Shown here piece by piece: positions 1,356 through 21,537 of a stretch of DNA of 22,484 nt. Both the position numbers and the translations under genes were made by a program. The stretch's first letter is position 1. Each line of letters opens with the position of its first letter. The notes below the pieces were generated by a model that did no database searches, was not told where the DNA came from, and saw only the letters and a program-made list of their open reading frames with translations. The DNA is from a virus, in IMG/VR virus record IMGVR_UViG_3300017733_000052, positions 1 to 22,484 of that record. One strand, given 5' to 3'.

Positions 1356-1487
1356 CTAGTTTCCTTCTTGTTCAGATGATCTTTCTTCTCTACAACATTT
1401 ACAATTGCATATATTATTATCTATAGATACATCATCCTTACCACAAGTACAATAGTCTTTATTCGTACAATATTTAACTTCTTCCAT
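1356..1487 (-). CDS. Cysteine-rich 43-aa protein (metallothionein-like spacing)
   Basis: A very small protein with seven cysteines in 43 residues, at 7, 13, 15, 27, 29, 31 and 32 (CTC, then CNCKCC), which suggests metal binding or a disulfide-knotted peptide. I chose the ATG at 1487 because AGGAG lies eight bases before it. A longer 68-aa reading from a GTG at 1562 would add a hydrophobic N-terminus but has no visible ribosome-binding site. The stop codon overlaps the ribosome-binding region of the next gene and the direction matches the terminase, so it is probably the first gene of the leftward unit. The function is unknown and no family is recognised. Confidence 0.6.
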   Translation of the reverse strand: MEEVKYCTNKDYCTCGKDDVSIDNNICNCKCCREERSSEQEGN

Positions 1488-1563: not shown

Positions 1564-1579
1564 GTTGCATAAATGCAAC
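1564..1579. promoter_or_regulatory. Perfect inverted repeat, possible operator between divergent units
   Basis: GTTGCAT-AA-ATGCAAC is a 16-bp palindrome with 7-bp perfect arms. It lies between the leftward terminase unit and the rightward extended -10 promoter at 1617-1644. Its position fits a dimeric repressor or activator site, or a hairpin in the leader of the leftward transcript. On the plus strand an A/T-rich stretch follows, but the T-run begins about ten bases after the stem, so it is a poor plus-strand terminator. Confidence 0.5.
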
Positions 1580-4259: not shown

Positions 4260-4553
4260 ATGCTCTATGAATTTACCGTCCCATGTTTGGAATGCGAAGG
4301 TGAGGGAAAAATATATCGCGGCGAAGGAGATGAACGAGTCACATACTACGATTGCGATCACTGTAACGGGGAAGGAGTGGAATATTCCGAAGCATACTAC
4401 GACTCAGTGCCTGATTTAAAAGAAGATTTTCCTGATGCTGAGAATATAGAAAAGCACACGCTGACAGAAAATGAAAAGCTTAGTATGTGGAAATACTGGA
4501 TGAAACATAATCCAGAAGTTTTAAAGTATGATAGCATCAAGAGGTATTATTAA
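4260..4553 (+). CDS. Small zinc-binding protein with DnaJ-type CxxCxGxG pair
   Basis: A 97-aa protein whose first 40 residues carry two CxxCxGxG motifs, C9LEC12EGEG and C32DHC35NGEG. This is the module that binds one zinc in the central domain of DnaJ. There is no J-domain and no peptide-binding domain, so it is an orphan zinc module followed by an acidic helical tail. Such modules appear in many phage proteins and may mediate protein-protein contacts. The ribosome-binding site is weak (AGGA 12 bases upstream). A competing frame from 4189 overlaps it in another phase, but the duplicated zinc motif makes this frame clearly the real one. Confidence 0.8.
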   Translation: MLYEFTVPCLECEGEGKIYRGEGDERVTYYDCDHCNGEGVEYSEAYYDSVPDLKEDFPDAENIEKHTLTENEKLSMWKYWMKHNPEVLKYDSIKRYY

Positions 4554-15161: not shown

Positions 15162-16256
15162 ATGAAGTATGCTTTTATTACAGGTATCACCGGCCAGGAT
15201 GGTTCATACCTAGCTGAATTACTTTTGTCCAAAGACTATTATGTACATGGTTTAATTAGGCGTAGTTCTACACCCAATACAAAAAATATAGATCATATAA
15301 TTAATAACCCTAAAGTTTTTTTACACTTAGGGGATATGACGGACAGTGCTAATTTAAGTAAGTTAATTAACGATATTAAACCTGACGAGGTTTATAATCT
15401 AGCTGCACAAAGTCATGTTAAAGTATCTTTTGATACACCTGTATGCACAGGAGATATAAACGGTCTTGGCTCAATGCGATTGCTTGAAGCATGTCGCAAT
15501 ATTAAAGACAGTAGAGTACCAAAGTTTTATCAAGCATCTTCTAGTGAATTGTTTGGTAAGATACAGGAACCAATTCAAAATGAAACAACTCCGATGTATC
15601 CTCGTTCACCGTATGGCGTAGCAAAACACTATGCTTACTGGGCAGTAAAAAATTATCGAGAAGCCTATAACATGTTTGCTTGTAATGGCATCTTGTTCAA
15701 CCATGAAAGTCCTAGAAGAGGAGAAGAGTTTGTTACCAGAAAGGTAACTAAGTATGTAGCTAACTGGCATACAAATTCTGAACCGCTTGAGTTAGGAAAT
15801 CTTTCTAGCCTCAGAGATTGGGGACATGCTAAAGATTATGTTAACGGTATGTGGCTTATGCTGCAAGCATCCAAACCAGATGACTATGTTCTTTCAACAG
15901 GAGAGAAACATAGCGTTAAAGAATTGGTAGAACTTTGTTTTAAAATTAAACACAACAAAAATATACTATGGGAGGGTGAGGGTATAGGTCAGAAAGGATA
16001 TATTAATTATTTTACAACTAACGCTAATGAAAAAATGCAAAGGAAACTAGTTGTTGTAGTTAATCCTAACTTCTATAGACCTTCTGAAGTAGATGTTCTG
16101 TGTGGCGACTCTACTAAAGCTGAGACAGAATTAAATTGGAAACGTAAATATACGTTTGACAGGTTGATAAAAGAAATGTTATTGTCAGATCAACCAGAAA
16201 AATTTTGGTATAAAAACGGAGGTGAATTACCTAATGGTTACTACACAGTCTCATAA
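15162..16256 (+). CDS. gmd: GDP-mannose 4,6-dehydratase
   Basis: A 364-aa short-chain dehydrogenase/reductase that converts GDP-D-mannose to GDP-4-keto-6-deoxy-D-mannose, the branch point to fucose, perosamine, rhamnose and colitose. The nucleotide-binding motif is GITGQDGSYLAE (residues 8-19). The catalytic region ASSSELFG has Ser127 and Glu129 in place of Thr and Glu of E. coli GMD, and YGVAK has Tyr151 and Lys155. The length is close to bacterial GMD (about 373 aa). AAGGA lies 13 bases upstream, a rather long gap. It overlaps the next gene by 23 bases, so the two enzymes are made together and probably act in sequence. Inserted in a replication block, it is an acquired metabolic gene. Confidence 0.93.
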   Translation: MKYAFITGITGQDGSYLAELLLSKDYYVHGLIRRSSTPNTKNIDHIINNPKVFLHLGDMTDSANLSKLINDIKPDEVYNLAAQSHVKVSFDTPVCTGDINGLGSMRLLEACRNIKDSRVPKFYQASSSELFGKIQEPIQNETTPMYPRSPYGVAKHYAYWAVKNYREAYNMFACNGILFNHESPRRGEEFVTRKVTKYVANWHTNSEPLELGNLSSLRDWGHAKDYVNGMWLMLQASKPDDYVLSTGEKHSVKELVELCFKIKHNKNILWEGEGIGQKGYINYFTTNANEKMQRKLVVVVNPNFYRPSEVDVLCGDSTKAETELNWKRKYTFDRLIKEMLLSDQPEKFWYKNGGELPNGYYTVS

Positions 16257-17427
16257 AATTAACTGGCCTTTAGCCCATGATACTTGGGACAATAAAGAGC
16301 GAGATGCAATGCATGAAGTTATTGCTTCTGGTAAATTTACCTTTGGAGAAAAAGTAAAAAAGTTTGAAGATGATTTTTGTAACTACTTTGATTTTCCCTA
16401 TGCTGTACAAGTTAACAGTGGCGGCAGCGCAAACCTTTTGATGGTAGCTGTTGCAGTTGAAAAGGGTTTAATAAAAAAAGGTGACAAAGTTATTGTCCCT
16501 GCTATCGGTTGGAGTACTTCATACTTCCCATTCTTACAGTATGGTATAGACTTAATATTTGTAGACGTAGACAGAGATACTTGGAACATCAGAGTAGATC
16601 AAATTGAAGATAATATAGCTGATGATGTTAAAGGTATTCTAGCTATTAATATTTTAGGTAATCCTTGCAATTACGAAATAATTAATTCTATCTGTAATAA
16701 TTACAATTTGCTACTGTTTGAAGATAACTGTGAGTCTATGGGAGCAAAGCAGGGTGATAAATACTGTGGTGGCTTTGGTGACATAGGTACATTTAGTACA
16801 TTTTTTAGCCATCATATACAAACAATGGAGGGCGGTGTTGTTGTTTGTGATGACTACGACACATATCAACTTCTTCTTAGTTTAAGATCACATGGGTGGA
16901 CAAGAGGTACAAAATACTTTAAGGATAATCCTTTTGAGTTTGTAACTCTAGGCTACAATGTAAGACCTGGAGAGTTAAACGGTACACTTGGTTCTGTTCA
17001 GCTAAATAAATTAGATGATATGAACAACCAAAGAATTAAAAATGCAGAAACATTTATAAAGTATTTTGGTAATAAAGATTATTGTAGGATACAAAAGGTA
17101 GAAGAAAATAGTCTTTCATCTTGGTTTGGTTTTGGAATTGTCTTTGAACAAAACTCATTCAGAGAGAGGACAAAAAAAATTTTCGCAGATTATTCTGTTG
17201 ACTGCAGACCTATATGCACTGGTAACTTTTACAATCAACCTGTATGTGATAAATACTCTAGCAACATACAGAAAGGTGCATCATTAGCATCAGCAAATAA
17301 TATTGAGGATAATGGTCTGTTCTTAGGAAACAATCCTATGGATTTAGAACCAGCTATTAAAAGTCTTAGCGAAGTTTTAGACCATGAATTTAGTGAGCAG
17401 AATATTATTAATTCTGGTTTACTGTAG
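16234..17427 (+). CDS. DegT-fold PLP enzyme with catalytic His: likely GDP-4-keto-6-deoxymannose 3-dehydratase
   Basis: A 397-aa DegT/DnrJ/EryC1-fold sugar enzyme. The PLP region EDNCESMGA and the motif STFFSHHIQTMEGG are clear. In aminotransferases the loop before the EGG carries the lysine that binds PLP (KxIxxxEGG); here that position is His193. A histidine there is the hallmark of sugar 3-dehydratases such as ColD (His188) and RfbH-type E1 enzymes. ColD removes the 3-OH of GDP-4-keto-6-deoxymannose, which is exactly the product of the upstream GMD. No Fe-S cysteine cluster is evident, which favours ColD over E1. The ATG at 16234 is preferred (GGAGG at 16218-16222); a GTG at 16222 overlaps that site. 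A perosamine synthase is the main alternative but should keep lysine. Confidence 0.8.
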   Translation: MVTTQSHKINWPLAHDTWDNKERDAMHEVIASGKFTFGEKVKKFEDDFCNYFDFPYAVQVNSGGSANLLMVAVAVEKGLIKKGDKVIVPAIGWSTSYFPFLQYGIDLIFVDVDRDTWNIRVDQIEDNIADDVKGILAINILGNPCNYEIINSICNNYNLLLFEDNCESMGAKQGDKYCGGFGDIGTFSTFFSHHIQTMEGGVVVCDDYDTYQLLLSLRSHGWTRGTKYFKDNPFEFVTLGYNVRPGELNGTLGSVQLNKLDDMNNQRIKNAETFIKYFGNKDYCRIQKVEENSLSSWFGFGIVFEQNSFRERTKKIFADYSVDCRPICTGNFYNQPVCDKYSSNIQKGASLASANNIEDNGLFLGNNPMDLEPAIKSLSEVLDHEFSEQNIINSGLL

Positions 17428-19284: not shown

Positions 19285-20970
19285 ATGCCCCAGTTTCGAT
19301 CAAACGAAAACCCTATGTTCAGATCTAAATTTAGCGAAGATATATTCAAACACAAGTATGCACATACAGGTTGCGAAACTTGGTCTAGTTTAGCTACAGT
19401 TCTTGTCGAAGATGTTTGTCAAGATAAGATGAGCAAAGAAGAAAAAGATGATCTTGTCAATTACATTACAGATTTAAAATTTATCCCAGGTGGCCGGTAC
19501 TTATACTATGCTGGACGAACCAATAAGTTTTTTAACAACTGTTATTTGTTGAAGGCAGAAGAAGATACAAGAGAAGATTGGGCAAATATTTCTTGGAAGT
19601 CAGAATCATGTTTAATGACAGGCGGTGGTATAGGAATAGACTACTCTGTATATAGAGAAGAGGGACGCATCCTAGCTGGTACTGGTGGCCTTGCATCTGG
19701 ACCTATACCAAAGATGATGATGGTTAATGAGATTGGTAGGCGTGTTATGCAGGGTGGTAGTAGGCGGTCTGCTATATATGCCAGCCTAAATTGGCAGCAT
19801 CCTGATGTAAATAAGTTTCTTGAATGTAAGAACTGGTATGATATGCCAGTAGGTAGTACAGGATTTACGGTTGGTCAGATTAAAGAACAGGATTTTAACT
19901 TTAATGCACCTTTAGATATGACCAACATTAGTGTTAATTATGATACTGAATGGCTGCTAAAGTATTTACGGACAGGTGATGCAGGAGAAGTCTTTGAAAA
20001 GAATGTAAAGCAAGCTTTGAGTACAGCAGAACCTGGGTTTAGTTTTAACTTCTTTGATAAAGAAAACGAAACACTTCGTAACGCTTGCACAGAAGTTTGT
20101 TCGGACACAGACTCGGACGTTTGTAACTTAGGATCTTTAAACCTTGGACGTATTGAAAGTGTTAAAGAACTTAGTAACATAGTAGAACTAGCTACAAAGT
20201 TTCTTTTGTGTGGTACTCTACGAGCAAAGCTACCTTATGAAAAAGTTTATGCAGTACGAGAGAAAAATCGTAGGCTTGGTCTTGGCCTGATGGGCATACA
20301 TGAGTGGTTAATTAAACGTAATTTTAAGTATGAAGTTACTGATGAACTACATCAGTGGTTGGCTGTATATAAAGGTGTTAGTGATTCAACATCTCAGAAG
20401 TTTTCAGATGAACTTAGTATTAGCCGCCCTGTTGCTAACCGTGCTATTGCACCAACAGGATCAATAGGTATTCTTGCTGGTACAAGCACAGGTGTAGAAC
20501 CAATATTTGCTGTAGCTTACAAGCGTAGGTATTTAAAGGGTGGAACTAGATGGCATTATCAGTATGTAGTTGACAGTGCAGCGCAAGAACTTATCAATAT
20601 TTATGGAACTAAGCCAGAAAAAATTGAGTCTGCTCTTGATCTTGCTGATGATTACAAACGTAGAATAAAGTTTCAGGCTGACGTACAAGACTATGTGGAC
20701 ATGTCTATCTCATCCACAATTAATTTACCTTCGTGGGGTAGCAAGCTTAACAACGAAGACACAGTAAAAGACTTTGCTAAAACTCTTGCTTCATATGCTA
20801 GAAGACTAAGAGGATTTACTGTATATCCTGACTCATGTCGTGGAGGACAACCTCTGACAAATGTACCTTACTCTGAAGCTGTAGATAAACTAGGTGAAGA
20901 GTTTGAAGAGGGCGTAGAAACTCACGATATCTGTGACATTACAGGTCATGGTGGTAGTTGTGGGGTATAG
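19285..20970 (+). CDS. nrdJ: Adenosylcobalamin-dependent (class II) ribonucleotide reductase
   Basis: A 561-aa class II reductase that converts ribonucleotides to deoxyribonucleotides using adenosylcobalamin, with no oxygen and no second subunit required. The redox cysteine pair is Cys86 (FNNCYLL) and Cys280 (DVCNLGSLNL). The thiyl radical residue is Cys268 with Glu270 in NACTE. The substrate loop PTGSIGILAGTSTGVEP begins at 390, and the C-terminal tail ends with Cys550 and Cys559 (CDITGHGGSC) for reduction. It is shorter than many bacterial NrdJ proteins but complete by motif. AAGGA precedes the ATG. It depends on host cobalamin, which limits the host range. There is no room for a cobalamin riboswitch directly upstream. 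Confidence 0.92.
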   Translation: MPQFRSNENPMFRSKFSEDIFKHKYAHTGCETWSSLATVLVEDVCQDKMSKEEKDDLVNYITDLKFIPGGRYLYYAGRTNKFFNNCYLLKAEEDTREDWANISWKSESCLMTGGGIGIDYSVYREEGRILAGTGGLASGPIPKMMMVNEIGRRVMQGGSRRSAIYASLNWQHPDVNKFLECKNWYDMPVGSTGFTVGQIKEQDFNFNAPLDMTNISVNYDTEWLLKYLRTGDAGEVFEKNVKQALSTAEPGFSFNFFDKENETLRNACTEVCSDTDSDVCNLGSLNLGRIESVKELSNIVELATKFLLCGTLRAKLPYEKVYAVREKNRRLGLGLMGIHEWLIKRNFKYEVTDELHQWLAVYKGVSDSTSQKFSDELSISRPVANRAIAPTGSIGILAGTSTGVEPIFAVAYKRRYLKGGTRWHYQYVVDSAAQELINIYGTKPEKIESALDLADDYKRRIKFQADVQDYVDMSISSTINLPSWGSKLNNEDTVKDFAKTLASYARRLRGFTVYPDSCRGGQPLTNVPYSEAVDKLGEEFEEGVETHDICDITGHGGSCGV

Positions 20971-21537
20971 ATGTTAACGTATCACTGTTTTAAAGAAGTG
21001 TTACCAAAAGAATTTTGTGACGGTATAGTAAATGTAGCAAGGGAGTTAGACTCAAAAGAAGCTGAAGTTTCTAAAGATGGTGATGATGTAATATTATCTG
21101 AGATAAGGAACAACAGGGTTGCTTGGTTAGCTAATTCAGAGTTATCAGAAATATTAGAACTATATGTAGATATAGCTAATGAAAAGGCTGGCTGGGATTT
21201 TAACTTAACTTCTTTTGAAGTACCTCAAATATCTTTCTACGGTAAGAATCAATTCTATGATTGGCACGTTGATACAGGCGTAGAAAAACAAAGCGATCCT
21301 TACTTTAGAAAATTAGCTGTATCAATCACACTGAATGACGAGTTTAAAGGGGGCGACTTTCAAGTACAAAACTTTGTTCATCCCCAAGCATCCAATAGAT
21401 TTAAGACAGTAAAAGAGATGAGAAGAAAAGGTAGCATTATTGTCTTCCCATCCTTTATCTTTCACAGAGTAACTAAAGTAAAGGTTGGTGAAAGATGTGC
21501 TATGACTTGTTGGTTTAGAGGTAAAAAATTCTCTTGA
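20971..21537 (+). CDS. 2-oxoglutarate/Fe(II)-dependent oxygenase (prolyl hydroxylase-like)
   Basis: A 188-aa dioxygenase of the double-stranded beta-helix fold. The iron ligands are His99 and Asp101 (WHVDTG) and His165 (FHRVTK); Arg175 in VGERCAM is placed to bind 2-oxoglutarate. Between them GGDFQVQN fits the core strand of the P4H/PKHD type. Small oxygenases of this type are frequent in marine phages and may hydroxylate a protein or a base, but the substrate cannot be read from the sequence. The ATG directly follows the reductase stop, so it is cotranscribed. The stop overlaps the -35 of the next promoter. Confidence 0.88.
   Translation: MLTYHCFKEVLPKEFCDGIVNVARELDSKEAEVSKDGDDVILSEIRNNRVAWLANSELSEILELYVDIANEKAGWDFNLTSFEVPQISFYGKNQFYDWHVDTGVEKQSDPYFRKLAVSITLNDEFKGGDFQVQNFVHPQASNRFKTVKEMRRKGSIIVFPSFIFHRVTKVKVGERCAMTCWFRGKKFS

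Follow-up and report, generated by a model that had tools for sequence, protein, structure and literature searches.

A conserved cysteine-rich gene ahead of the large terminase gene of uncultured phages may encode a metallothionein-like protein

What might a 43-residue protein with seven cysteines do at the head of a phage terminase unit? The question is raised by a 22,484-base virus record (the window, which is the whole of that record), whose minus strand carries, in this order, a 43-aa ORF, an 82-aa ORF and the gene of the large terminase subunit, TerL (Table 1). A preliminary description, which named no strand, had placed the seven-cysteine ORF at the head of the terminase unit and had pointed to its CTC and CNCKCC clusters, to a metallothionein-like density of thiols and to a packaging context in which it recognised no role for such a peptide. 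The ORF is confirmed, on the minus strand, and both clusters are present as described: bases 1487 down to 1356 encode MEEVKYCTNKDYCTCGKDDVSIDNNICNCKCCREERSSEQEGN, a protein of 43 aa with 7 Cys.

Table 1. Features at the terminase end of the window
Feature	Position	Strand	Remarks
TerL (large terminase subunit)	1–1104	minus	PHROG 38, E 7.1e-81; truncated by the window end
82-aa protein, second cistron	1106–1354	minus	N-terminus hydrophobic, signal-like; two Cys
43-aa seven-cysteine protein gene	1356–1487	minus	C7, C13, C15, C27, C29, C31, C32
Shine-Dalgarno-like AGGAG	1496–1500	minus	8 nt before the ATG
Sigma-70-like promoter pattern TTGTCT-N17-TAAAAT	1522–1550	minus	Conserved; putative late promoter
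Perfect dyad GTTGCATTTATGCAAC	1564–1579		Upstream of the promoter; candidate operator

The plus strand holds many genes, among them those of a GP88-family protein, a nuclease, ThyX, a primase-helicase, a ribonucleotide reductase and HSP20 (all by Pfam), together with a DNA polymerase that was named from the annotations of its matches. This polymerase is closest to those of the pelagiphages HTVC104P, HTVC103P and HTVC115P (47–48% identity), and HTVC103P has a divergent layout similar to that of the window. Among phage records, the window's TerL is closest to that of HTVC023P-type phages (39%). At the DNA level the first 2,500 bases of the window had no match in 50,697 phage records, and the 82-aa protein likewise had no match in phage records; in its build it resembles gp80 of HTVC115P, which lies between the putative small terminase and TerL. 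The late order of a 54-kb relative runs Cys gene, 81-aa protein, TerL, 202-aa protein, portal, 64-aa protein and GroES-like protein, with the major head protein farther along, and from relatives such as this record we infer a marine origin; the carrier phages are uncultured and probably marine. Elsewhere on the plus strand of the window, a 97-aa protein (4260–4553) has DnaJ-type CXXCXGXG repeats, with PF00684 and Anti-TRAP both below cut-off; a GDP-mannose dehydratase and a DegT-type aminotransferase gene stand in tandem (15162–17427), a pair that suggests surface-sugar modification; and a 2OG-Fe(II) oxygenase gene (20971–21537) adjoins the ribonucleotide reductase gene.

In the mechanical ORF list the cysteine gene appears in a longer form that starts at a GTG (68 aa, 1356–1562), and it is the ATG form of 43 aa, not the GTG form, whose start is common to the relatives. 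The ATG form is the only one of the window's 64 ATG-start ORFs of 30–70 aa to carry at least seven cysteines. When the window was shuffled with its dinucleotides preserved, 5 of 100 shuffles contained at least one such cysteine-rich ORF, so that the number of cysteines by itself exceeds chance only modestly. Its reading frame is open in all 28 distinct nucleotide versions, while each other sense frame has a stop in all 28. Given this pattern, and given that relatives keep the cysteines, the 43-aa ORF is, on sequence grounds, a genuine and conserved phage gene.

Presence was counted among IMG/VR relatives of TerL (the best 80 of 121), whose loci were read upstream with at least 350 bases required; seven of the 80 had less, and one of these (L011) carries the cysteine ORF. 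The preliminary description would have given way had the cysteines varied or the frames been broken in relatives, yet among these best 80 of 121 an intact cysteine ORF stands just before TerL in 37 of the 39 well-covered loci with a TerL of 81–100% identity, that is, in 12 of 12 at 89–100% and 25 of 27 at 81–88%. The two exceptions, both read by eye, are a remodelled 5-Cys protein (L017) and a locus that has no such ORF (L039). At TerL identities of 79% or less, the ORF was found in none of 34 loci from the same best 80 (0 of 1 at 79%, 0 of 33 at 74% or less).

Counted over 77 loci, including the window's own and re-fetches of identical contigs, the family comprises 24 distinct proteins of 41–58 aa, each with 7, 9 or 10 Cys, which are encoded by 28 distinct nucleotide sequences. 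A 19-row alignment has six invariant columns, all of them cysteine, with CXC and CXCC invariant throughout; two of its rows (L036 and L038) start one codon late, without the Met, which leaves the cysteine columns unaffected. Within the groups, all nine cysteines and the CXCXXCXC motif are invariant in the nine-Cys proteins (n = 13) and all seven cysteines in the seven-Cys proteins (n = 5), an invariance that is partly by construction, because members were gathered by a pattern demanding the cysteine spacing and grouped by cysteine number, so that forms with lost cysteines would be missed. This bias was checked at the 39 well-covered close loci, where the pattern is missing only at L017 and L039. 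The cysteine codons vary silently between TGT and TGC at six of seven positions in the 7-Cys group and five of nine in the 9-Cys group. Mean pS/pN was 0.504/0.187 in the former (7 distinct sequences) and 0.525/0.210 in the latter (20), with dN/dS as high as 0.67 in individual pairs. Judged by these substitutions, the 43-aa gene is under purifying selection.

Upstream of the gene, the leader adds to its position a conserved promoter pattern. G+A-rich stretches, such as that of the window's ribosome-binding site, also precede most relatives' ORFs. TTGTCT is found upstream in all 29 distinct family leaders, and in 26 of them a fitting -10 hexamer (at least four of six bases) follows at 17–18 nt, so that the family pattern is TTGTCT-N17/18-TANAAT-like; L021 and L022 have a second TTGTCT, with TACAAT, and in L009 the alignment places a second one with TAAAAT. 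Promoter-like sites as a class are not in excess (7 in the region against 7.3 expected in shuffles), and it is the conserved TTGTCT site, not the class, that carries the promoter argument. In non-carriers, 7 of 28 loci have TTGTCT-N17-TAAAAT 85–122 nt before the TerL match, one has it with a poor -10 and 20 have no promoter pattern within the 260 nt scanned; that of L017 sits farther upstream. Because those seven non-carrier loci also have it before TerL, the putative promoter probably belongs to the late operon, with the cysteine gene lying between promoter and TerL, and because the conserved pattern precedes the cysteine gene, this is likely the operon's first cistron. The context to which the preliminary description could assign no role can accordingly be refined to a clade-specific first cistron between a conserved, putative late promoter and TerL. 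The 82-aa gene is missing in L010–L013, where the cysteine gene stops 3 nt before TerL. The dyad GTTGCATTTATGCAAC occurs in 11 of the 29 distinct leaders, namely all ten of the 7-Cys group and that of the 10-Cys form (L015), and in none of the 18 nine-Cys leaders.

Do the cysteine forms belong together? The 7-Cys form reads C..YCTC..CNCKCC and the 9-Cys form MCDNPNC..CNCKDCSC..CKCC, and a direct comparison of the two profiles gave no match (probability 6.7, with 40 of 200 column shuffles equally good). The 10-Cys form of L015, which begins like one form and ends like the other, fits both profiles: against the 9-Cys profile no full and no Cys-fixed shuffle was equally good (0 of 200 each), and against the 7-Cys profile none of 200 full and 5 of 200 Cys-fixed shuffles were. 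Its TerL branches beside the 7-Cys group. Position, the common promoter and this bridging form argue, with some doubt, that the 7-, 9- and 10-Cys forms are one family.

With near copies and fragments omitted, 53 of the 80 loci entered a TerL tree (root arbitrary), which places 25 carriers, the L017 variant and two non-carriers, L039 and L045, in one clade (support 100/99, 28 rows), the placement of L045 being unsure owing to its long branch; the 25 rows outside this clade have no cysteine gene. The tree needs four label changes and fits one gain with three losses or replacements. A profile search of 30 records, many of them fragments, recovered one copy in nine of ten carrier-clade records (the miss being L017) and none in the 20 others. 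Two of these 20, L044 and L070, start within TerL, and the former, whose TerL identity is 87%, may be a member of the carrier clade. In viral_contigs the two profiles yielded 25 and 14 confirmed loci, the L015 protein matching only itself there, while in genome_contigs the 9-Cys and 7-Cys profiles gave 130 and 40 pattern matches, none of which was confirmed. In L017 (674–889, plus strand), and also in L123, a 71-aa protein replaces the cysteine gene behind a similar leader; it starts MAECKCTECKC in L017 and MVECKC in L123, its remainder differs from the cysteine family, and it may be a variant or remodelled first cistron. L006 (2845–2988, plus strand) and L007 have an extra 47-aa CXXC...CXXC ORF directly before TerL.

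Family searches gave no significant match. The 43-aa protein and one 9-Cys member gave chance-level matches to phage proteins (E 3 and E 9), and no Pfam family matched in 19 members. The prokaryotic metallothionein model PF02069 matched none of the 19 at E 5, a cut-off at which HMMER's filters drop most matches above about 0.1, and none of nine virus records; in a control of the same search it gave a signal in 4 of 14 control genomes, above cut-off in one. NCBIfam yielded nothing significant in the 19 members (one match, E 0.026, in a single member), PHROG nothing at E 1 for the protein of the window and nothing significant for the 19 (single members matched families of unnamed function at E 0.076 to 4.9), and matches to solved structures were at E 0.27 or worse, none of them a metallothionein. 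The profile method is able to see such proteins, for known models do respond to other small cysteine proteins in these phages. A 92-aa late protein of L124 (3580–3858, minus strand), with one CXXC and another Cys, had no Pfam match at E 0.1 and no PHROG match at E 0.01. AlphaFold, run without metal, returned no confident fold (mean pLDDT 53 and 59), which is as expected for an apo-metallothionein and equally for a thin alignment. As far as the searched libraries reach, the gene family matches no known family. The metallothionein-like density of the preliminary description is right in motif terms, yet neither the metallothionein family models nor the solved structures gave a significant match. 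The searches therefore do not support placing the protein in a known metallothionein family, and what we propose below covers the manner of working only.

We tentatively favour, at a likelihood somewhat below even, the reading that the gene encodes a small cytosolic metal-thiolate protein, metallothionein-like in its manner of working, which would be the first product of the late operon and act as a metal and thiol buffer. This reading draws on the CXC, CXCXXCXC and CKCC motifs, the small size, the conserved thiols and the N-terminus. Since relatives keep the cysteines, the seven-Cys family is probably metal-binding, one of the two options named in the preliminary description. No hydrophobic N-terminus or signal sequence is visible by eye in the family, most 9-Cys members beginning MCDNPNC or MCENPNC, and we therefore expect the protein to remain in the cytosol, a reducing compartment in which clustered CXC and CC thiols would favour metal over disulphides; a secreted disulphide peptide was rejected for want of a visible signal sequence. 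In this scheme, the protein would be made as late expression begins, its cistron being the first in the operon for packaging and virion genes; its 7–10 cysteines would form a thiolate cluster with Zn(II) or Cu(I), and during virion construction this cluster would act as a buffer of metal and thiol chemistry inside the infected cell.

A scarcity or absence of aromatic residues is a criterion for metallothioneins, and the CXCXXCXC motif occurs in bacterial ones; five family members have 16–18% Cys, 1–2 aromatics and 0–2 His. The SmtA/PflQ2MT type of bacterial metallothionein (PF02069) is likewise small, Cys-rich and presumed cytosolic, and the 9-Cys form shares a CXCXXCXC-type cluster with it, whereas the phage family has no PF02069 match, ends in CKCC and is encoded in a late unit of a phage. 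By description, the mycobacterial copper metallothionein MymT is also comparable, as a small Cys-rich bacterial protein outside the main bacterial type. Bacterial metallothioneins are described as proteins that bind zinc tightly and act as buffers and in which His and hydrophobic residues are commoner, as they are in plant metallothioneins, and the MymT motif as absent from the other bacterial ones (PMC10612145); their metal-thiolate clusters have also been described (PMC7387436). A further-reaching version, which we consider possible though rather doubtful, is that these phages have their own metallothionein-like family, unrelated in sequence to the known ones, as the lead late-operon gene of one clade and as a Zn/Cu buffer at virion assembly. 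In its boldest form, this protein would work with TerL where other phages encode a small terminase.

A counterweight to the buffer reading is that all 76 family loci that were fetched (repeat fetches included) have TerL next to the cysteine gene, always on the same strand and from a 49-nt overlap to 397 nt downstream of the ORF end, which fits a packaging role as well. The main alternative, unlikely in our estimate, is a packaging accessory, a zinc-stabilised mini-protein acting with TerL, for example as motor adaptor or regulator, in phages without a recognisable small terminase. The 3' end of the ORF overlaps the TerL start in 12 of 14 nine-Cys loci (11 more have no placeable start), and the gene lies where HTVC103P and HTVC115P carry their putative small terminase, which is the first gene annotated in their minus-strand late units and lies ahead of TerL. 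No small terminase was recognised among ten scanned proteins of one relative, and that of HTVC103P had no match in nine records (one query, in a search without a positive control). However, TerL manages without the cysteine protein, which is absent from all 34 well-covered loci at 79% TerL identity or less and, inside the clade, from L039 and L045; vertical descent by itself would keep the two genes linked within one clade; and the closest phage records for TerL are HTVC023P-type (39%), not HTVC103P. Small terminases have a DNA-binding N-terminal domain and an oligomerisation core and measure roughly 120–180 aa, for which 43 aa is too small. Those of HTVC103P and HTVC115P have 145–146 aa and zero cysteines, with no sequence relation seen to the cysteine family, and a classical small terminase was rejected on size and on the lack of a significant PHROG match, even though the gene sits just upstream of TerL. 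Within at most 1.5 kb upstream of TerL, no ORF with more than four Cys was found in HTVC023P, DSL-LC04, CRP-810, HTVC103P or HTVC115P.

Alternatively, the protein could bind zinc and regulate transcription, translation or a host or defence factor from the switch to late expression onward. A small regulator of this kind would also suit the first ORF behind a conserved promoter, and we regard it as improbable. The dyad conserved nearby in the 7-Cys group, the L017/L123 variant, which behind its similar leader looks like an exchangeable accessory gene, and the extra ORF near TerL in L006 and L007 are compatible with it. Against it, the family has CXC and CC where zinc ribbons have CXXC pairs, the searches matched no regulator family, and the net charge of the five members computed runs from -4 to +9, a spread that argues against a common nucleic-acid-binding surface. 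The zinc-ribbon mini-proteins, such as that of L006, are alike in being tiny, Cys-containing and in the same operon, but zinc-ribbon models matched the L006 ORF weakly, below their cut-offs, and the seven-Cys family not at all; a zinc ribbon was rejected for the latter on this ground and on its motifs.

A thiol redox buffer or reductant, working by dithiol/disulphide exchange without metal and serving, for instance, the phage ribonucleotide reductase, is very unlikely: the thiol content is high and the reductase gene is in the window (19285–20970), yet no thioredoxin or glutaredoxin family matched and the cysteine gene is in the late, not the early, unit. That the ORF is spurious, lying by accident in a conserved leader region, would be compatible with its very short length and with the cysteine-rich ORFs of the shuffles, but the conserved frame, a mean pN below pS, the silent cysteine codon changes, the ribosome-binding site and the promoter pattern contradict it, making it extremely improbable, and we rejected it.

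Searches of the open-access literature turned up nothing relevant on phage metallothioneins or Cys-rich phage mini-proteins, and the available part of the main text of a study on uncultivated pelagiphages (PMC9599517) uses none of the terms cysteine, zinc and small subunit. If the metal-binding reading is true, phages would encode metal-thiolate proteins of their own that are coupled to the making of virions. Phage infection would then be connected with the handling of trace metals, a phage function that is undescribed as far as this literature shows. If the protein serves TerL instead, a mini-protein would take the place of the small terminase in the packaging system of these phages. In both cases, a 43-aa gene missed by the annotation libraries searched is, by its substitution pattern, under purifying selection.
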